This document shows positions 25,455 through 62,665 of a stretch of 64,000 nt of DNA, one piece after another (position 1 is the stretch's first letter; each line of letters starts with the position of its first letter). A program made the position numbers and the translations under genes. Origin of the DNA: Calothrix sp. PCC 7716 (lineage in GTDB: Bacteria > Cyanobacteriota > Cyanobacteriia > Cyanobacteriales > Nostocaceae); NCBI RefSeq assembly GCF_019977735.1, contig NZ_AP025018.1, positions 7,134,580-7,198,579 on the forward strand, read 5' to 3'. The notes below the pieces were generated by a model that saw only the letters and a program-made list of their open reading frames with translations, ran no database searches and was not told where the DNA came from.

Positions 25455-26378
25455 TCAAATATTAGACCAATATTTTGAAGGAATCCATATTTTGTTAAAA
25501 TTCTGTTCTTGCGCGGCAGCAAGGCTTGGAGGCATTAAAAATTCTCCGATAACAGTAATGACTTCAGTCAAGGAAACTTGTTCTGTCTTCAGTTGCCCCT
25601 TATCAACAAAGGATTTCCATTGTTTCTGTTTAGCGGTGTCAAGAGCAAATTCTAAGGTTAAAGCGAAGGGTAAGATTGTAGGTAATGTTGTTTTGCGTCG
25701 GTTAAAGGTGTTTTTGATTGCTTCAGAAAGGATTTCTCCCTGAAATTCAAATTTTTGACAGAGAAACCAGATATCATAAAAATCTTTTAATCGACTGTTT
25801 GTGATGCCAAGGTCAACCATTGCTTGAAATTTTTCAGCAACGACTGTTTCACGAGGATAGACAAGCAAACAGGGAGCAGGCATATCCAAGATAGTAGGAA
25901 ATTCAGCTAATGCCGCTGATGGTGTAACTGCATCACCAAATCCAATATCAACTTGAACCTGGATATGAATCGAAGTCAGTTTACCCGTCAACTTAATTCG
26001 TACCCCTTCATATTCCTGTTCTTCCTTGATTTTTTCACCCTTCACACTTTCTTGATCAAAGACAATGCCATCATCCTCAAAGGCTATGCAGCAAATTTCT
26101 GCAAATACTTTTTCCAGATAAGAAATTTCATTTTCCCCATAACCAAGGAGGTCTAAATCTTTAGTAGCTCTATGCGGCTCACCATGCCATATCCTAAATA
26201 GGCTTGCTCCCTTTAGGATAAACTGCTGCTTGTATGGAGACTGACTCAGCCTGTACAAAAGACGGTCAGCGGCATAACGAGTAAGCAGATAATTAAAATC
26301 CTCTTGTCGTAGTTTTGAGAGCTACAGCAACCGCCCTTTAACTGAAGCTGGAATATTACGAAGTGACTTTTTATTCAT
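25455..26378 (-). pseudogene. abiEii: AbiEii-type nucleotidyltransferase toxin with an early amber codon
   Basis: Toxin half of a type IV AbiE system; AbiEii proteins are nucleotidyltransferases. The natural start is ATG 26378-26376, overlapping the antitoxin stop as ATGA. The frame reads MNKKSLRNIPASVKGRLL, then TAG (26324-26322, codon 19), then LSKLRQEDFNYLLTRYAADRLLYRLS and on to the end without further stops. The nucleotidyltransferase motif LKGASLFRIWHGE...TKDLDLLG and the late motif KFQAMVDLG...RLKDFYDIW are intact. Without readthrough, only a product from a TTG at 26258 (267 residues, missing the first 40) could form. A recent nonsense mutation is the simplest reading. Confidence 0.8.
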
Positions 26379-26971
26379 CTGAGCGACTCCAAATAAGGAC
26401 GCATCACATTTTGCATTCGGCAGATTTTCGCATAATGCCAAATCTCATCAATACTGCAATGTCTCTCCCGTGTGCCAGAACGTAGTGCTTCGATAGCGAC
26501 ATCAAGACCAATTTTGTTACGGAACTTGAAACAATCTACAACGGTTTTGGCAACAGAATAAACTCTTACGCGCACTCCTTCAATTTCATGCTCCTCAATC
26601 CCAGATTCCAAAGCTTGACCAGACATATAAACAATCCGTAGTGGAAGTATATCTTCTTTAGGAGCGCGTGCTTTTTGGGATATAGTTAGCCATACTTCAA
26701 AAGGGGCTTGGGTCGTCAGTTCATAAAAGCTGAGAGCAGAAAGCAGGCAGATTATTCCATGAGGAACCCTTTTGGCTGCTTCCACAAAGCTATGACTTTT
26801 TGTAATTTCTGCTTCTGTGAAAGTATAAAGCCCACGGGCAGAACGAATTAGCAGTCCTTGCTGCTCAAGACGTTTTAGATATTCCGGATGGATTCCTTTT
26901 GCTTCCGCGTCTTTAGCGCGAATCACTCCCATCTCATGGGCGAGTTCCAGCACTTGCTGCATTTTGGACAT
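26375..26971 (-). CDS. abiEi: AbiEi-type antitoxin / transcriptional repressor
   Basis: 198 residues. The N-terminal winged helix (QVLELAHEMGVIRAKDAEAKGIHPEYLKRLEQQGLLIRSARGLY, about 6-50, here broken by no gaps in the protein) binds the operon's own promoter in this family. The C-terminal domain neutralises the AbiEii toxin, with HGIICLLSALSFYELT and the VYSVAKTVVDCFKFRNKIG region. The reading frame is intact. The stop TGA overlaps the ATG of the toxin gene. Because the toxin carries an amber codon, this antitoxin may now be without a partner. Confidence 0.85.
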   Translation of the reverse strand: MSKMQQVLELAHEMGVIRAKDAEAKGIHPEYLKRLEQQGLLIRSARGLYTFTEAEITKSHSFVEAAKRVPHGIICLLSALSFYELTTQAPFEVWLTISQKARAPKEDILPLRIVYMSGQALESGIEEHEIEGVRVRVYSVAKTVVDCFKFRNKIGLDVAIEALRSGTRERHCSIDEIWHYAKICRMQNVMRPYLESLR

Positions 26972-27343: not shown

Positions 27344-28126
27344 TTAATGGATTATTGATAGGATGAGGGTTACTGCTGAACATAGGGAGAGGGCAAGTAA
27401 CCAGGTGTTGAATTGTTTTTGCTTTTTTGCTTGAGTTTCTAGTTTTTGGTGTAGTCGTTCGATTTCTGTCTGTGCTTGTTGAAGTTGGTTGTGGATGGTT
27501 TGGTTATCGAGATGTAGCTTGTCTAGTGCTTGTTTTCCTCCAAAGTCGGTTATTATTGTTTGAATTTCGGTTTTTATGGTTTGAATTTGTGAGTGTGCTT
27601 GAGATACTTCGTTGGTTTGTGATTGGGTTTTTTCTTGGTATCTGGCTATTTCTTGTTTGGTTGTTTCGATTTGCGCTGCTAGTTGGTTGATATGTTCGAG
27701 TTGTTGAGGCAAGTCTTTGGTGAATGCTGGTAAGATTGCTTCTAGTTGTTGTGCTTGAGTTTTTGTTGCGTCTACGCTGTCTATGACAATTTTTAGCCCT
27801 TGTCTAAATGAATCTAGTACAGTTTGGTAATTTCCTATTTGCTCTAAGTATGATGTTATTTCATCGCGAATTTCATGGATTGTGCTGATATTTGCTTCTA
27901 GTTTGACTTGTTGTTCTTGGATTTCTTGGATGTTGTTTTTAACAGTTTGTAAGAATAAGAATGTGTCTGATTTTAGTTGCTCTATTTTGCTGTTATCTTC
28001 TATAATAGCTGTGTGAATGTTGGCAGCTTGTTTGACTGCACTGTTCGCTGTTGTAATTCCTCGTTCGATAGTATGCCAAAGTTCTTCTAGTTGTTTGGCT
28101 ATTTCTGCATCTGTATGTAATTTCAT
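27344..28126 (-). CDS. coiled-coil protein with C-terminal membrane anchor
   Basis: 260 residues. About 10-235 are predicted by eye to be long coiled coil: heptad-like Leu/Ile/Ala spacing with many Gln, Glu, Lys and Thr, as in AAQIETTKQEIARYQEK and LQQAQTEIERLHQKLETQ. Residues ~243-258 are a single hydrophobic helix (WLLALSLCSAVTLILSI) at the extreme C-terminus, so it is probably tail-anchored in the inner membrane. Its ATG directly follows the TAA of the RelE-helicase gene (TAAATG), implying translational coupling and a joint role. No enzyme motif is visible. Structurally it recalls membrane-sensor or pore partners of defence operons, but that is inference. Confidence 0.8.
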   Translation of the reverse strand: MKLHTDAEIAKQLEELWHTIERGITTANSAVKQAANIHTAIIEDNSKIEQLKSDTFLFLQTVKNNIQEIQEQQVKLEANISTIHEIRDEITSYLEQIGNYQTVLDSFRQGLKIVIDSVDATKTQAQQLEAILPAFTKDLPQQLEHINQLAAQIETTKQEIARYQEKTQSQTNEVSQAHSQIQTIKTEIQTIITDFGGKQALDKLHLDNQTIHNQLQQAQTEIERLHQKLETQAKKQKQFNTWLLALSLCSAVTLILSIIH

Positions 28127-30436
28127 TTAATTTTCTCCTTTTGATAATAGATTATTTAGACGTGATGTAAATGATTCACATAGTAATGTTACAAGTGGCT
28201 TTTGTTGGTTTGATTGAGTGTTGATATCTTGCCAAAAACTTAGGTTTTGCTGGTAGTTGCCATCATATATATGTGACCTGACGCGCGCTGCTTCATATGG
28301 TAGTCCTTTGGCTTCTAGGTCTTTGGCTATACTCTTTAATAAGTATTTATATTCTTGAAAGTCGGTATCTTTTAATATTTCTGCTTCTGCTACTGCTTGC
28401 CACGATAGCCCCATCGCGCGCAATAGTAAACAGCGCAGGTGAATATTTTGAGTTTTTTGGAGTTCGTTGTTTAAGTGTTCATGTGTGTGTTTTTTTAATA
28501 GTGTTATGGCTTGGGTTTCCCATATATATAGTTCTGCGTTTTCTACTCCGGCAAATTGCAGTGCTAAATAACTATCCCAATATAGATAACCTGTTTCGCA
28601 ACGTTTGAGTAGACGTTGTTGTACGTCATCGGTAATTTGATTTAAGTCAGCGTCACTGACAATTTCACTAATCCAATTTATGGCACCTTGGGTATCGATT
28701 GTTTCACATTGCTGAAAAAAGTTATAGCCGTTATTGGTAAGGCGCCTTATTTCCGATGTTGTTACAACTACTAACAAACGGGAGCGCGCGCGCGTCAAAA
28801 GTGTATACCACTGAAAACTTTCTTCTAGAGTTGGTTTTTCTTCACCTTCAAACAAGCAAAAAGCTACACAAGCTTCAAATTCACGACCTTTAGCTTTTTC
28901 TGGGTTGAGAATCACTAAGTTATCGTTTGAGTTTAATACTTTATTGGAAAGTACTTTAACAGCTTTAGCTAAGTCACGCAGTAAATAACGACGATTTTCT
29001 TCGTTACCACATTCTCCAGCAAGTTTGTCTAAAAATAAAATAGCTTCTTCTTTAGATGCACATTCTAATAATTTTACACTTTCACCACTTTCAAAAGCGT
29101 GTTTAGGATTCGCTGGTAATGGTAGCTCTTTACATTTGTTTTCGGATGTAATTGTTTTTGCTACTTCCCAAAATTGATTTGCAAATTCTAATATTTGGCG
29201 TGAGTTACGGTAATTACGTACTAGTTCAATTGAGTTCTTAATATGTAACTGTCCCCAGTTAAAATCAGTAGCTTGAATGCGTTGATTTAAATCACCTAAC
29301 AGCCATAAATAGGTTTGATGTCCTTGGGCAGCCCATGATTTACATACTGAAATAATAGCTTGTAACTCGCTTAATAAATAATCTTGCGTTTCATCTACTA
29401 TTAATAAAGTGCATTCAGAATTACTAGGGTTAATGTTCTGTGAATTCTGTAATATTTTCGCTGCATCTGACCGTGATATACGACAAGATAAAGCTTTATA
29501 AAAATGCTTCTTACTAATTTTCAATAAATTTTCGACTCGGTGTGAGTTTACTTGATACATAACGTTTTTATCATTAGCTTTATATTTATTTTCATCTAAT
29601 ACAAAAGCTTGATATAATAGAACGTCATCGGTTGTAATATCAGTTTGACGACTATATTTCAGTGCTTGCTTTAATGCATCTAACTCTTCTTGTCCTGAAG
29701 CTAGACGGTTTTTAAACTCAGGATTAATTTTAGTCAACCACTGCGGAAACGTACCTAACCAAAAATTATCTTGAGTTGCTGCTGTTTTAACTTCAGAAAA
29801 TTCGGAAATATCACGCCGCAAAGCTTCCGGTACAATCAACATTGTATTCCACCCAAAATTACGGTGAATTTCGCAAGCGAATAAAGTTGCACAAACCGTC
29901 TTACCAGTACCAGGTGCGCTTTGAATAACTATGCACGAACTATCTTCAAACTCATGCACTGTACTTGGTTGATACTGCGAACACAATATTCGTAAAGGTT
30001 CATCCAAAATATTGCGCTGGTAATTCGTCAAAATAGGTGAGTACCGATAGCTACCATACACAAACCTATACCAATCGGTATCTTGCTCTCGATTCCAATG
30101 GTATGCTGGGTTCTCTTCTAACGCAGTACCTTGTGGGTGCAAAAGTTCTTCAATAACGTTTGTGTGCGAACATTGTCGCTCATCAAAGGCATCATCATAA
30201 ACACTATCGCGCAACCCAGCTTTGATAACAACTACATTATTATCCGCGCGATGCCAAATAACGCGCCACTTGCCAGAGCGAGTTCGCAATAAATTATCAA
30301 AACCCTTGAGCGCTTTCGTTTGCCTTTCATCTCCCTGACTCAACCGATGCAAAATCTGATAAATCCTTTGCAGGTCAGAAGGTGGAAGCTTTTGGATTTC
30401 GCGAAAGGCTGCTCGTATTATTTTCACGTCAGCCAT
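28127..30436 (-). CDS. RelE-domain / superfamily-1 helicase fusion
   Basis: 769 residues. Residues 1-~88 look like a complete RelE/ParE toxin fold (IIRAAFREIQKLPPSDLQRI..LKGFDNLLRTRSGKWRVIWHR..VVVIKAGLRDSVY). A linker follows, then a UvrD-like ATPase core: Q-motif-like NYQRNIL near 138, Walker A SAPGTGKT at 173-180, DETQD at 348-352, motif III-like LLGDLNQRI, YRNSRQILEFAN, and a late TLLTRARSRLLVVVT motif VI region. The last ~170 residues are helical. No antitoxin gene is adjacent. It heads a two-gene operon with the coiled-coil anchor protein. A nucleic-acid-sensing or ribosome-linked stress/defence function is plausible but unproven. Confidence 0.82.
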   Translation of the reverse strand: MADVKIIRAAFREIQKLPPSDLQRIYQILHRLSQGDERQTKALKGFDNLLRTRSGKWRVIWHRADNNVVVIKAGLRDSVYDDAFDERQCSHTNVIEELLHPQGTALEENPAYHWNREQDTDWYRFVYGSYRYSPILTNYQRNILDEPLRILCSQYQPSTVHEFEDSSCIVIQSAPGTGKTVCATLFACEIHRNFGWNTMLIVPEALRRDISEFSEVKTAATQDNFWLGTFPQWLTKINPEFKNRLASGQEELDALKQALKYSRQTDITTDDVLLYQAFVLDENKYKANDKNVMYQVNSHRVENLLKISKKHFYKALSCRISRSDAAKILQNSQNINPSNSECTLLIVDETQDYLLSELQAIISVCKSWAAQGHQTYLWLLGDLNQRIQATDFNWGQLHIKNSIELVRNYRNSRQILEFANQFWEVAKTITSENKCKELPLPANPKHAFESGESVKLLECASKEEAILFLDKLAGECGNEENRRYLLRDLAKAVKVLSNKVLNSNDNLVILNPEKAKGREFEACVAFCLFEGEEKPTLEESFQWYTLLTRARSRLLVVVTTSEIRRLTNNGYNFFQQCETIDTQGAINWISEIVSDADLNQITDDVQQRLLKRCETGYLYWDSYLALQFAGVENAELYIWETQAITLLKKHTHEHLNNELQKTQNIHLRCLLLRAMGLSWQAVAEAEILKDTDFQEYKYLLKSIAKDLEAKGLPYEAARVRSHIYDGNYQQNLSFWQDINTQSNQQKPLVTLLCESFTSRLNNLLSKGEN

Positions 30437-46909: not shown

Positions 46910-47194
46910 TTAGTAAACTTCGTCGTGTGTACCTACATCGACTAAAACGATTGCTTCTTCTTCCTCATCCTCAACTTTTTCAAAATAGAAGATAATCCGA
47001 AAGTCATATTCCACAGAACACGACCAAAGACCCTTAAGCTCCCCTTGCAGTTTGTGGGTTTTGAGGGTAGGGTAAAATGGATCCATTTCAAGCTGACTTA
47101 AAGTAATTAAAACTTTGGCTTGAAGTTGAGGGCGATTTTTACAACGACGTTTAAGGGCACGGCGAAAACTTTCGTCGAAAATTAACAGCCTCAT
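46910..47194 (-). CDS. RelE/YafQ-type mRNA interferase toxin
   Basis: 94 residues of the RelE/ParE superfamily: FRRALKRRCKNRPQLQAKV, LKTHKLQGELKGLWSCSVEYDFRIIFYF and a C-terminal DVGTHDEVY. The YafQ-like basic patch and the terminal GTHDEVY (His near the C-terminus) suggest ribosome-dependent mRNA cleavage. Its ATG overlaps the antitoxin TGA by four bases, so the antitoxin is translated first. Confidence 0.85.
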   Translation of the reverse strand: MRLLIFDESFRRALKRRCKNRPQLQAKVLITLSQLEMDPFYPTLKTHKLQGELKGLWSCSVEYDFRIIFYFEKVEDEEEEAIVLVDVGTHDEVY

Positions 47195-56946: not shown

Positions 56947-57915
56947 CTACATATGGGGGGCATTTTGTAACGTTTCTATTTTTTCGACTAAGAGACGAAG
57001 TTGAGCGGGTTTATTGCGAAACCAATCTGTTGACCAAATTCGGTGGATGTTCCAGCCAAGTTTTTCAAGTACTTGTTGCCTTAAACGGTCACGGTCTCTG
57101 GCTGTAGGGGAACTATGGTAGGATGCACCATCACATTCAATGCCTAATAAAAATTCTCCTGGGTGATTTTTGTTGACAACTGCTAGGTCAATTCGATAAC
57201 CTGAACATCCAACTTGAGTACGTATAGTATACCCATGTTTTACTAAGGTGTGGTAAACATCTTCTTCAAATGGTGAGTCAAATTTAAGTTCCGAGGTATA
57301 CAAATTACCTTCGAGTCTTTTACCACCGCTTTCTGCATACTCTAAGTAATCTCGTAATAATTTTATACCCTGGCTTTTACTGCGTGTTATATCTATATCA
57401 CCAGCTAGGAGAGAGGAGACTAAGGTAATTTTACTTTTTGCCCGTGTAATAGCTACATTCAGGCGCCGTTCTCCACCTTGTTTTATAATTGGGCCAAAAT
57501 TAAGATAAAGTTTACCTTCGGAGTCACGAGCATAACCGACGCTAAGTAATATCACATCTCGCTCATCACCTTGAACATTTTCTAGTGCTTTGAGGAAAAA
57601 CTGAGGTGAGTTGTCGCTGCAAAATATTTCAAATTCGGGGTTGTCGCGTCCCAAAATCTCTATTTGCTCTTGAATTGCGTTAGCTTGAGCTTCGCTAAAT
57701 GCAATAATACCGAGAGATTGGTTGGGAGATGATTGAAAATGTTCTAACGCTAACTGAGCAACTACTTCTGCCTCACGTCTATTATCCCGGCGCCCACCTC
57801 GGTCGTAAATACCATCAGGGACATGTTTAAACCATACTCCCAAGTTGAGATTTTGAACTGGGTTCGGAAATGTAATTAATTGAGATTCGTAAAAATGTTT
57901 AATTTGAACATTCAT
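56947..57915 (-). pseudogene. C-terminal part of a broken DUF4011-type helicase, with PD-(D/E)XK nuclease domain
   Basis: 322 codons in a different frame from the larger upstream ORF. From about residue 6 (HFYESQLITFPNPVQ) it continues the helicase: motifs V-VI are NVQGDERDVILLSVGYARD and GGERRLNVAITRAKSKITLV. The last ~110 residues form a Vsr/DUF559/MTES_1575-like nuclease: FEEDVYHTLVKHGYTIRTQVG, YRIDLAVVNKNHPGEFLLGIECDG (quoted in parts; Asp, then Glu-x-Asp), and LEKLGWNIHRIWSTDWF. The first five codons only arise from the deletion junction, so it is not an independent gene. Translation from ATG 57915 is possible but would lack the ATPase core. Confidence 0.8.
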
Positions 57916-60900
57916 CTAAAACGCTTTCATAGCTTGCATTATCCTCATCTTCTACATCTTCTCCATTATCTCCGGTTGTAAAGAAAGATGTTGGTGGAAG
58001 TTGTTTGTTGTCACCTATTACAATAACTTGGTCGGCACGAATAATCGCAGGAACAACATCCTCCGTGCGAAGTTGAGAAGCTTCATCGAAAATTAGAACG
58101 TCAAAATGAATTACCGATGCATCAATATATTGACTAACTGATAGTGGACTCATCATCCAGCAAGGTTTTAAAGCTTTGACTAAGTTTGGCGCCCCTTTTT
58201 GTTTATCATTAAGGAGTTTACGAATCGGCAAATGCTGCTTTTTCTTAGTTACTTCTCTTTTCAGTATTTGTAACTCAGCTTGAATATCTAAGCTTTTTTC
58301 GTAATTTTGCCAGCGTTGTGCGTGAAGTTGCTTTAAACGTTCTCTAGCAGTATCAAGTTGGTTGCTATCAAGTTTAGAAAAATCTTCAATTTGTCGTTCG
58401 TGTACCTCAACATTAAAGTTCTTTAACTCAGGTTTCTGAGCAAGGATAGCATCAAGGCATGTTTTGTAGATAATTTTTTCTAGACATGGAAACCATTGTA
58501 ATGGTTTTATTTTACGCTCGCGTAAAGCATCTAATAATTTTTTAGTACCTAAATTTTCAAGTTTTTCATAGGTTTCTTTATAAGTTAACCATTCTTGGAA
58601 GTCAGATAATTCAGATTTAGCTAAATTCAGAAAACTTTCTAATTCTACGAAAGTAATTTTATTTTTGGGTAGATAAGAATCTGTAATATCACTTTCATTA
58701 AAGTATAATAGGATAAAATCTAACCCTTGCTTGATATTTTTATGCGTTAATTCAAATGTTTTTACAAGTTCGCTGAGTTCGCGTCGTTGAGAGGGAGAAT
58801 TTAGAATTTGCTGAACAGAATCAGTGTCGAGCGAATACTGTTGTAAATCAAGGCGCCAATTTAAAGCTTCTTTTATTTGTTTTAATTCTGCTTGACTGGA
58901 AATTTGCGGGTTAAACAAAGAACCAAAAATTTGAGCAGGTAGATAATCAGCTTGACTGAGCTTATTTTTAAGGACAGCCATAGGATTTAGTTTATCATCC
59001 CGCAAAGCATCTACAAATTCTTGAAGCCCTAAATTTTCTAGCTCTGTATGTATTGCTTTATATGTTAGCCAATCGCGGAAATGTGATAAATCAGTTTTAG
59101 CTGCAAATAGAAAATTCGCCAAATCGGTAAATAAAATTTGAGTATGAGGTAGATATTGCCCAACAATATCATTTTCTTTAAAGTACATAAGTACCAAATT
59201 CATACCCTTTCTAAAATTTTCAGGAAAGGATTCAATTTTCTCAAATAATTCAACTAGTTCACGTCGCTCTCCAGCAGAATTTAGAACTTGCTGAATATAG
59301 TGAGTGTCGAGCGGATACTGTTGTAAATCAACTAGCCAATTTAAAGCTTCCTCAATTTGTTTTAATTCTGCTTGGCTCGAAATTTGCGTGTTAAATAAGC
59401 AGCCAAAAACTTGAGCAGGTAAATAATCTATTTGGCTGAGTTTATTTTGAAGGACGACTATAGGACTTGGTTTATTATCTCGCAAAGCATCTACAAAGTT
59501 TTGAAATCCTAAATTTTCTAGCTTTGTATGAATTTCTTTGTATGTTGACCAATTACGAAAATGTGGTAAATCAGTTTTAGCTTGATTCAAAAACTTTATC
59601 AGGTCAGTAAATAATATTTTATTTGCAGGTAGATATTGCCCGATGATATCATTTTCGTTAAAGTATGAAGTCAAAAAATTCATTCCCTGGTTAAAGTTAT
59701 CAGGGAATGATTCAACTATTTTAACTAGTTCACTCAGTTCCTGCCGTAAAGATGGAGAATTTATAAGGCGCCTAACAGAGTCATGAGTCAGCGAATAATT
59801 TGGTAAGTTAGTCAGCCAACTTAAAGCTTGCTCAATTTCGATTAATTCTGACTGACGAGAAAATTCAGGGTTAAATAAAGACCCAAAAACTTGACGAGCA
59901 GGGTAGTTGCTTTCATACAGTTCATTTCTTGCTGCTTGTACTTCAACAGCTTGTAATAAATCACGTTTTAATTCATTAAACGAAATCTGTCCTTTTTGAA
60001 TGCGTAGTTTTTTCAAATAGTTAATATCGTTTCTATATTTGGGATTAAAAATTCTCATAATCCAATAACGATTATATCTTTGAAACCTATTATTCAAAGC
60101 AGGCAATTCTGAAGAAAATAATTCTGCATTATATTTTTGTTTTAAAAATGGTTCATTTTCTTCTAAAAATGTGATATTTGCTTTTAACTTAGCAAAGGCA
60201 TCCTGAGCAATTGAAACATCTACTGTGTTCCAGTCACTTGGCAAATCAGATGGACTATTTAATGTATAATGAAGAGCAGGCAAGGATGCTTCAATATTTT
60301 CTAAATTTAATAGTGGCTGAATTGTTAAAATAGTTTGAAGCTGTTGAGATGCTGTTTGAAGCGAATAAATAGCTTTCTGAAAACTTTCTATTTTGTTATT
60401 AATTTCTAGTTCTAGAGTTTCTGAACAAGATTGTAATTTACTGTGATGCCAAATAGTTGTAGTTTCTTCTCTTAAAAAGGGTAGAAACATAGAAAGCTGA
60501 TGCAGTAAATTTTTAGCTTCTACTGAAAGCTTATTTTTCTCAATTTCTCGAACATCGTTTCTCAAAATATTTAAAGCATCTCGAATAATTGAAATATTCA
60601 ATAAGACCCAGTTCTCTGGTAACTTAGATGGCGCCTTCAATATATGTTGAAGAGTTAGATAGCAAATTTGTACATCTCTTAAATTCAACAAAGGTTGAAC
60701 TTTAAGTGTCATTTCAAGCTGTTGACTAACTGTTTGAATTAAATAAATTGCTTGTTGAAATTCCTCAAGTTTACTTTTTATTTCCAATTCCTGCGTTTCA
60801 GAGCAATGCTTTAAATTGCTTCGTTCCCAAATAAGTGTTTTTTCTCCTCTTAAGAATAATAAAAATGAATAAAGTCGAGCAAGTAGATTTTTAGCTTCTT

Positions 60901-62665
60901 GAGAAATTTTTTTGTTTTCAATTTCTTGAACGTCTTTTTCTAAAATACTAAATGCTTCACGAGCGCTGGAAACATCTAATTTAGTCCAATTTTCTGGTAA
61001 TTCTAATGGCGCCTTTACTATATGATATATAGCTGAGTAGCAATTTTCGAGTGACTCTAAATTAGTTAAAGCTTGAATTTGTAATATTCTTTGTAACTCT
61101 TGACTAATGTTTTGAGTTGAAATAATTGCTTGCTGGAACTCTTGTATTTTTTCTCTAATTTCTAATTCCAGATGGTAAGAATAAGTCGCAAGAGAACTTT
61201 TTGCCCAAATAGTTGTTTTATCTCCTTGAAAGAACGGTAAAAACTGCGCTAGCTGATTCAATAAATTTTCAGCCTCTTGCAATTTGTGTAAATTCCATTG
61301 ACTGAAATTAGAAAGTATAATATCAATATCTGGAATTCCTTCGCGCTCTTTCTTCAAAAGTGTGCCAAATATTTCAAATGGTGATTTATCTAAAGGCTTT
61401 TCTTTCGCATGTAGACTTGTGTGATATGAATTAACTAATTGACGATTAGAAGCAAACCTTTCAAAAAATAAATTGTGATTTTCTGAACTAGATATTTGTG
61501 ATATATCATTAATGGTTTTGTCTAAATTCTGGATAAGTTTGCGTTTATCAGTTGTACCACTGTGGTGAAGATTAAGACAGATATGGTCTAAACCACATTC
61601 TACCATGCGCTTATAAACAACACTTAATGCTGTTTCTTTTTCTGCAACCAATAGAACTGATTTACCCTCACCAACCAGTTCAGCAATTATATTTACAATA
61701 GTTTGGCTTTTACCAGTTCCTGGTGGTCCCTGAACAACAAAACTAGAACCTCTTTTTGCTGCTTCTATCACAACTTGCTGACTAGAATCAGCATCTAAAA
61801 TTTGAAATATTTGTTCTGGTTTAACTAGTGAATCTAAAGCTTCGGCATTTGGTGGTTCTTTAAAGTTGGATTGATAGCTAGTTAAATCTCCGCTAATTGC
61901 TTGCAAAATCGGGTGAGAAAAAATTCGTGTCTCATTTTCAATGATGTCCCTAACCATTGTCGCTTTGGCATAAGAAAACAGTGATAAAAACACATTATCT
62001 TTAATTTGCCAAGTCTGACGGTCTACTAAAAATTCTCTAATTAGGGTAATTATTTCGTCGTAATTTAAGTCTTGTATAATTTCTGCTTCTGGAAGCTCAA
62101 TCCCAAATTGCTTTAACTTTTGCACTAAGGTTGGATTTAATACTACATCCTCTTCTAAGGCAGATAGTTTATATACATCTCGTCTAGGTTGCTTAATTAA
62201 CTTTACAGGAACTAAAATTAACGGCGAGGTTAAAGCTTCTTCTGGTTTATCCTTGTCATACCAAGTTAATGCTCCCAATGCAAGAAATAAACTGTTTACT
62301 CCTCGCTCTTCAAATGACAGTCGCGCTTCGCTACGTAATTTCTTCAGGCGTTTGAGTTGTTCGCTACCTGTTTGACGAGTAATTAATTCCAGAGGATTTG
62401 CGGCGCCTGGTAATGCTTTATTATTTTTCAATAGCGAAGTATCTTGATACTCACTATCAAACATCTGAAAATTAAGCGTTTTCTTCTCAAATACAAGGTT
62501 TTGCAAGAGAATATTCGCAGAATCTGTGAGAATCTCTAAAGCTCGTGGACTATCTTGGTTAAACTTGATAAGAGGATTTCGTTTCCCCAAGTCAGCTAAC
62601 CCAGCTTTCCACTTTGCAATCTTTTGAATAAGGTTTTGCCGAAAGTCCAAAGCTGGCTGCTGCAT
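57899..62665 (-). pseudogene. N-terminal part of a giant DUF4011-type superfamily-1 helicase with internal repeats
   Basis: 1588 residues. The N-terminal ~230 residues resemble DUF4011 (IQKIAKWKAGLADLGKRNPL, SFEERGVNSLFLALGALTW). Walker A GPPGTGKS is at 313-320 and the DEASQ box at about 1527-1531, then IGDNKQLPPTSFF. The ~1200 residues between contain three ~125-residue repeats (about 455-850) and three ~155-residue repeats (about 930-1400). The frame ends at YESVLDECSN just where the family continues with WHYRSRHE-type motif IV, which is deleted. With the nuclease part at 56947 it formed one ~1930-residue helicase-nuclease, an architecture associated with phage defence. Confidence 0.8.

Follow-up and report, generated by a model that had tools for sequence, protein, structure and literature searches.

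What becomes of a RelE-type toxin domain that is joined to a helicase and has no antitoxin beside it? The question is raised by two adjoining genes on the minus strand of a 64,000-nucleotide stretch of the Calothrix sp. PCC 7716 genome (contig NZ_AP025018.1, positions 7,134,580 to 7,198,579; hereafter the window), part of a contig of 11.4 Mb in a genome of 12.4 Mb. The first gene encodes a RelE-like domain fused to a superfamily 1 (SF1) helicase and the second a coiled-coil protein, here called the partner (Table 1). The strongest result of our analysis is that the pairing of this helicase with the coiled coil is obligate. We suggest that the two genes form an accessory cassette that moves among cyanobacteria and most probably serves as an effector against invaders or in stress, a reading to which we give about even credence.

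In all 30 loci whose helicase gene is whole or split, the partner lies downstream of the helicase on the same strand. A first profile of the partner's N-terminal motif matches the partner in 28 of these; 18 of the 30 loci had been used to train it, and it matched 10 of the 12 untrained ones. The two that it missed (L094 and L095) have a start that resembles the motif by eye. In the 192 family genomes searched, the helicase is matched in 31 (E 1e-20) and the partner motif in 32 (E 1e-4), and all 31 helicase genomes, 25 of which had given no row to the motif profile, are among the 32; the remaining one (G094) holds an orphan partner. The two matches share a contig and strand in 30 of the 31 genomes, 9-38 bp apart in 26 and 383-1245 bp apart in four, while in the last (G529) the helicase match is cut by contig ends and a C-terminal piece of the helicase adjoins the motif. 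This co-occurrence has a Fisher p of 5.6e-35 when genomes are treated as independent, which they are not. In a sample of 195 genomes of the order, 15 have strong motif matches, 14 of them at helicase loci and the other in G094, and four further matches are weak (E 0.003-0.007); because most of these loci were in the motif profile, this result mainly shows the rarity of the motif elsewhere. A preliminary description of the locus, made from its letters alone, had proposed co-occurrence of the two genes as a check and had named homologues without the partner as a finding that would speak against it; the co-occurrence is there, and no such homologue was seen among whole helicase genes. As a separate observation, at one locus (L091:11075-11735) a toxin open reading frame (ORF) of RelE type (ParE_toxin E 1.3e-7) and one of 79 aa resembling an antitoxin lie between the helicase and the coiled coil, and the helicase/coiled-coil gaps are shorter at two related loci.

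In the window there is no gap at all: the stop codon of the helicase gene abuts the start codon of the partner gene (TAA, then ATG), as the preliminary description had stated. It had also stated that no antitoxin is adjacent, and we agree. Upstream of the helicase we find no antitoxin candidate on the minus strand, because the only ORF there of at least 25 aa is 25 aa long and overlaps the helicase start; the AbiE genes discussed below lie on the other side of the cassette. The small adjoining antitoxin gene of a type II toxin-antitoxin (TA) system is thus missing, with none upstream and a coiled coil encoded downstream. One could still read the pair as a TA-like addiction module, with the RelE-helicase as toxin and the coiled coil as antidote. 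There is no classical antitoxin, the partner abuts the toxin gene, no whole helicase gene lacks a partner and one partner (in G094) lacks a helicase, plasmid copies exist, and the partner evolves faster than the helicase. Across seven close loci, the ratio of nonsynonymous to synonymous substitution rates (dN/dS) is 0.053 for the RelE domain, 0.054 for the SF1 core, 0.091 for the helicase C-terminus and 0.19 for the partner; it is low in every part, and each part is therefore under purifying selection. We nevertheless hold an addiction module to be unlikely, given that the orphan partner is known from a single genome and is matched by a helicase fragment without a partner (L057), and that Pfam finds no DNA-binding domain in the partner, which follows the toxin rather than preceding it. 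A deletion of slr7083, the presumed partner gene of Synechocystis PCC 6803 (see below), has been obtained (PMC7002697); it is uninformative on addiction because the adjoining helicase in that strain is split into two coding sequences (CDS).

Pfam makes no RelE-type call in the window helicase protein, and the identity of its N-terminus comes from profile comparisons. A 16-row family profile matches solved RelE chains over positions 3-83 (1wmi, E 4.7e-5; 9g12, 1.0e-4; 3g5o, 4.5e-4), a profile of the RelE domain alone finds the same three chains (E 0.001-0.02), and in a relative at locus L095 Pfam ParE_toxin matches at E 0.0011, below its curated cut-off. Comparison by hhalign, profile against profile, with ten stand-alone cyanobacterial RelE/ParE-type domains yields a probability of 98.1 and E 1e-13 over 81 columns. 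Residues R51, R58, R76 and Y80 align with R58, R65, R85 and Y89 of the archaeal RelE 1wmi (the latter numbers counted by hand on the alignment), whose functional role we take as given. R58, R76 and Y80 are invariant in all 16 family rows, and their positions are also conserved in the stand-alone domains, which differ in being unfused and usually accompanied by a small antitoxin. The RelE residues named in the accessible text of PMC2791442 are K52, R81, R83 and Y87. Judged by whole-domain homology and the kept active-site residues, the N-terminus of the window protein belongs to the RelE/ParE superfamily (BECR fold).

The remainder of the protein is a predicted SF1 motor in which all core motifs checked are complete: none of the 16 rows departs from GTGKT (176-180), D348/E349/Q351/D352, G381/D382/N384/Q385, R410, K516/G517/E519/F520 or T548/R549. 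These motifs and the profile matches bear out the fusion of a RelE-like domain to an SF1/UvrD-like helicase that the preliminary description had proposed. Pfam AAA_19 and UvrD_C fall just under their cut-offs, and the helical C-terminus (residues 571-769) is conserved in the family and matches no Pfam model. Schlafen group 3 proteins combine an RNase domain with an SF1 helicase in immunity, with an RNase of unrelated fold; the Pfam SLFN-g3_helicase match is weak (E 0.45), and we do not assign the cassette to that group. The helicase is annotated as two CDS on the model-strain plasmids pSYSA and pAQ6 and is a single ORF in the relatives found in PCC 6714, B12 and PCC 7003.

The best solved-structure match of the motor, by the family profile, is a chain of HelD, a motor that recycles RNA polymerase (6wvk, E 6.3e-15), with UPF1 chains at E ~1e-5, and NCBIfam HelD matches the window helicase at E 1.1e-10, far below the model's cut-off. 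The protein might then be an RNA or translation surveillance factor of the HelD or UPF1 kind, whose RelE fold only recognises the ribosomal A site and whose coiled coil brings the motor close to the membrane. Strong purifying selection and the housekeeping neighbourhoods of some copies would fit such a role. The patchy presence of the family (16 of 386 genomes of the phylum, 31 of the 192) and its transfer are unlike a core factor, however, and the active-site positions of the RelE domain are kept, not decayed, so that we regard surveillance as rather improbable.

Fusions of RelE to SF1 helicases are already known in defence, and the claim of the preliminary description that no system of this composition had been described was too strong. 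ArmD, of ARMADA type II, combines a RelE-like domain with a GajB-like helicase (PMC12458937, preprint). The RelE and SF1 parts of the window protein are co-linear with RelE-UvrD proteins of ArmD architecture, and its best PADLOC matches are GajB models (E 3.7e-8). According to the accessible text of the preprint, deletion of any of the four ARMADA genes, or mutation of the ArmD Walker A motif, abolished phage protection, whereas a Walker B mutation did so only in part (PMC12458937). ARMADA differs from our cassette in requiring a YprA-like helicase, a BrxHII-like helicase and a PglX-like methylase (PMC12458937), none of which is present among the window ORFs near the pair, whether scanned or read by eye. 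No coiled-coil partner gene for ArmD is seen in that part of the preprint, and the window helicase family forms a clade of its own with an extra C-terminal region. CnuH of the CoCoNuT systems is likewise an SF1 helicase with a RelE-fold (RTL) domain, is encoded in operons with coiled-coil proteins and is predicted to act on RNA (PMC11090510). In contrast to the window protein, CnuH has an SmpB-like OB fold, a UPF1-like stalk, a winged helix-turn-helix (wHTH)-nuclease partner and an McrBC GTPase, and its RTL domain is described as without sequence conservation to known RelE proteins (PMC11090510), whereas ours is recognisable by sequence. No ORF for an McrB-like NxD GTPase or McrC stands beside the window pair; nor does the OLD-family nuclease GajA of Gabija, the neighbours being AbiE genes, DUF4058 genes and the coiled coil. 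Another RelE effector, the CARF-RelE Csm6 protein Sll7062 of pSYSA, had no RNase activity in vitro (PMC9676260); it resembles our protein as a type III CRISPR effector in which RelE is fused to a sensing domain, and differs in that the sensor is CARF where the window protein has a helicase.

The same Calothrix genome encodes, outside the window, a 697-aa RelE-UvrD fusion (L099:5127-7220) with ParE_toxin above cut-off and without a coiled-coil partner, so a RelE-helicase fusion alone is not the novelty. Because an Eco57I-type methylase ORF lies upstream of it, this protein may be an ARMADA-like ArmD; its match on an Escherichia coli plasmid comes after a methyltransferase and a large DEAD helicase, an order that, judging from the annotation, appears ARMADA-like. 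The new part is the obligate coiled-coil partner. The literature within reach of our search, which excluded many subscription papers, holds no description of the helicase/coiled-coil pair, and slr7081 and slr7082 go unmentioned in it. The main text of Gerdes 2025 (PMC11980606), as far as accessible, lacks the word helicase and by its own statement leaves out many multidomain RelE proteins.

The partners are alike in their N-terminal motif, where all 19 rows share D6, L13 and L16; their length ranges from 191 to 652 aa among the loci surveyed. The preliminary description had given the window partner a C-terminal membrane helix. That protein does have a hydrophobic tail (highest 19-residue hydropathy 2.21, from residue 241), but such a stretch is found in only 12 of 19 distinct loci. 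The orphan partner in G094 (L139:8961-9800) also has the tail and adjoins a large NTPase-like ORF with repeats; no helicase lies within 18 kb of it, and helicase searches of the whole genome found none.

On the Synechocystis plasmid pSYSA, the partner (L085) matches the N-terminal motif at E 3.8e-8 and has no hydrophobic tail. From gene order we infer that it is Slr7083, the record carrying no tag for it. Slr7083 forms polymers in vitro, is found at the cell periphery and binds HmpF in two-hybrid assays; in PCC-M, which is motile, its loss reduces twitching motility and impairs cytokinesis, and a non-motile strain is unaffected by the deletion (PMC7002697). It was published as an orphan filament-former, and the word helicase does not occur in the accessible text (PMC7002697). 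These properties raise the possibility that the pair is a cytoskeletal or motility module that exists mainly for its coiled coil, with the helicase carried along. We find this highly improbable: a partner without a helicase is seen in one exception only, partner length varies widely, purified coiled coils commonly form filaments, and the identity of Slr7083 with the gene at L085 comes from gene order rather than a record tag.

The cassette is scattered within cyanobacteria, with long helicase matches in the 16 genomes of the phylum noted above and eight matches in 72,556 plasmid records, all cyanobacterial. No match was confirmed in viral contigs. Restriction to cyanobacteria is likely and not proven, because chromosomes outside the phylum were scanned by six peptide patterns only, which did find six close relatives. 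In the helicase tree, the rows of one family (f1) fall in two clades, each of which also holds a row of another family (f12), and one row (f39), from another order, lies within a clade of support 98/97, its nesting there having support 93/90. These clades, together with the patchy presence, indicate horizontal transfer of the cassette; old duplication and loss are possible instead. The closest named loci are in Calothrix and Dulcicalothrix, with protein identity of 97-98% in four of six.

Context was examined for four of the eight matching plasmid records. On pSYSA of PCC 6803 and pSYLA of PCC 6714, the pair lies between csx3 (or a homologue in the csx3 position) and the cmr genes of a type III-B locus; slr7080 is Csx3 (PMC9676260). 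On a plasmid of Synechocystis strain B12 the pair stands beside TIGR03985 and RAMP genes, and on pAQ6 of PCC 7002 several TA pairs are near it. Linkage to Cas10/Cmr loci is confined to the Synechocystis plasmids, and by eye no Cmr genes are seen at the other loci examined. In the window, an AbiEi/AbiEii pair (25455-26971; PADLOC E 1.3e-90 and 6.1e-100) adjoins the cassette on the partner side, as the preliminary description had noted. It is beside the pair in two of seven Calothrix-type loci (the window and one of six other close loci); we rejected AbiE as part of the cassette and regard it as incidental because the other five lack it there.

We infer a defence role for the cassette from its homology to ArmD, its CRISPR and TA-rich plasmid contexts and its patchy transfer. 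Several results weigh against this interpretation. The three Synechocystis plasmid cases probably represent one ancestral event, and around a further copy of that clade (L054, in G078) no cmr-like ORF is seen by eye. Several chromosomal copies, read by eye, adjoin housekeeping genes. A comparison of PADLOC matches (150 of 153 flanking ORFs from 19 loci and 138 of 139 control ORFs, two of 20 control regions yielding no ORF) was not clean: 226 models at E 1e-8 were found in the flanks versus 81 in the controls, the models are redundant, and the control matches, among the 25 families listed, are mostly to PD-T4-6 models, which we take to be kinases. There is no match in 50,697 phage records. Seven of the 19 loci lack the hydrophobic tail, and in one of these seven the sequence is masked. 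The sole experiments on a homologue of the partner deal with motility and cytokinesis (PMC7002697). For helicase residues 1-110, an AlphaFold2 model built from seven near-identical sequences has low confidence (mean pLDDT 56); its top two Protein Data Bank (PDB) matches are RelE chains (E 0.08-0.10, TM 0.32-0.44), and none of its PDB matches reached E 0.001, so the model is consistent with a RelE fold and no proof of one. The preliminary description had named a prediction without a RelE fold as a further counter-finding; this poor model gives no such result. The preliminary description was thus right on anatomy and pairing and overconfident on precedent and on defence context, where the plasmid loci support it but homologues outside such a context, which it had itself named as counting against it, do exist.

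Should the cassette be an anti-invader or stress effector, the motor would load on foreign or abnormal nucleic acid, for example unusual transcripts, R-loops or DNA ends, and its ATP-driven movement would bring the RelE domain to ribosome-bound mRNA, which that domain would cut, halting translation locally or cell-wide. The coiled coil would bind the helicase through its N-terminal helix and gather it into membrane-near clusters or filaments, and it may hold the RelE domain off at rest, replacing an antitoxin. The toxin release by nucleic-acid sensing that the preliminary description had favoured may be part of this. The boldest form of this proposal is a cytoskeleton-scaffolded immune RNase, a RelE-armed helicase kept on membrane-near coiled-coil filaments in lieu of an antitoxin, released or activated by invader nucleic acid and, in one lineage, placed under type III CRISPR; we offer it as a speculation that is on balance unlikely. 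If it were true, Slr7083 would be the scaffolding component of an immune cassette of which the laboratory strain carries a split effector component, an orphan cyanobacterial filament protein would gain a molecular partner, and the RelE-armed helicases, of which ever more are known in bacterial immunity, would gain a membrane-near, polymer-forming partner. The cassette would also offer a case of a toxin domain kept in check with no classical antitoxin, one that model cyanobacteria such as Synechocystis allow to be tested directly.

Table 1. Features of the helicase/coiled-coil cassette in the window (position 1 is the first nucleotide of the window)
Feature	Position	Strand	Basis
RelE-SF1 helicase gene, 769 aa, first of the cassette	28127..30436	-	ORF list, family alignment
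RelE-family domain, ~residues 3-83	30188..30430	-	profile matches and alignment with 1wmi
Predicted SF1 helicase core, ~residues 160-565, motor motifs complete	28742..29959	-	family matches and invariant motifs
Helicase C-terminal region, residues 571-769, family-conserved, no Pfam match	28130..28726	-	
TAA/ATG junction of the helicase and coiled-coil genes, zero gap	28124..28129	-	
AGGAG, ribosome-binding-like, inside the end of the helicase gene, just before the junction	28135-28139	-	
Coiled-coil partner gene, 260 aa	27344..28126	-	
Partner N-terminal motif TD.E.A..LE.L...I..GI..A, proposed docking helix	27992..28126	-	profile/alignment
Partner C-terminal hydrophobic segment, residues 241-259, likely tail anchor	27350..27406	-	hydropathy

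Elsewhere in the window, a stand-alone YafQ-type toxin ORF lies at 46910-47194 (Pfam YafQ_toxin E 7.9e-9), and at 56947-62665 a large DUF4011/AAA_11 SF1 helicase is followed by an AAA_12 and MTES_1575 nuclease ORF, the two being perhaps one split gene.

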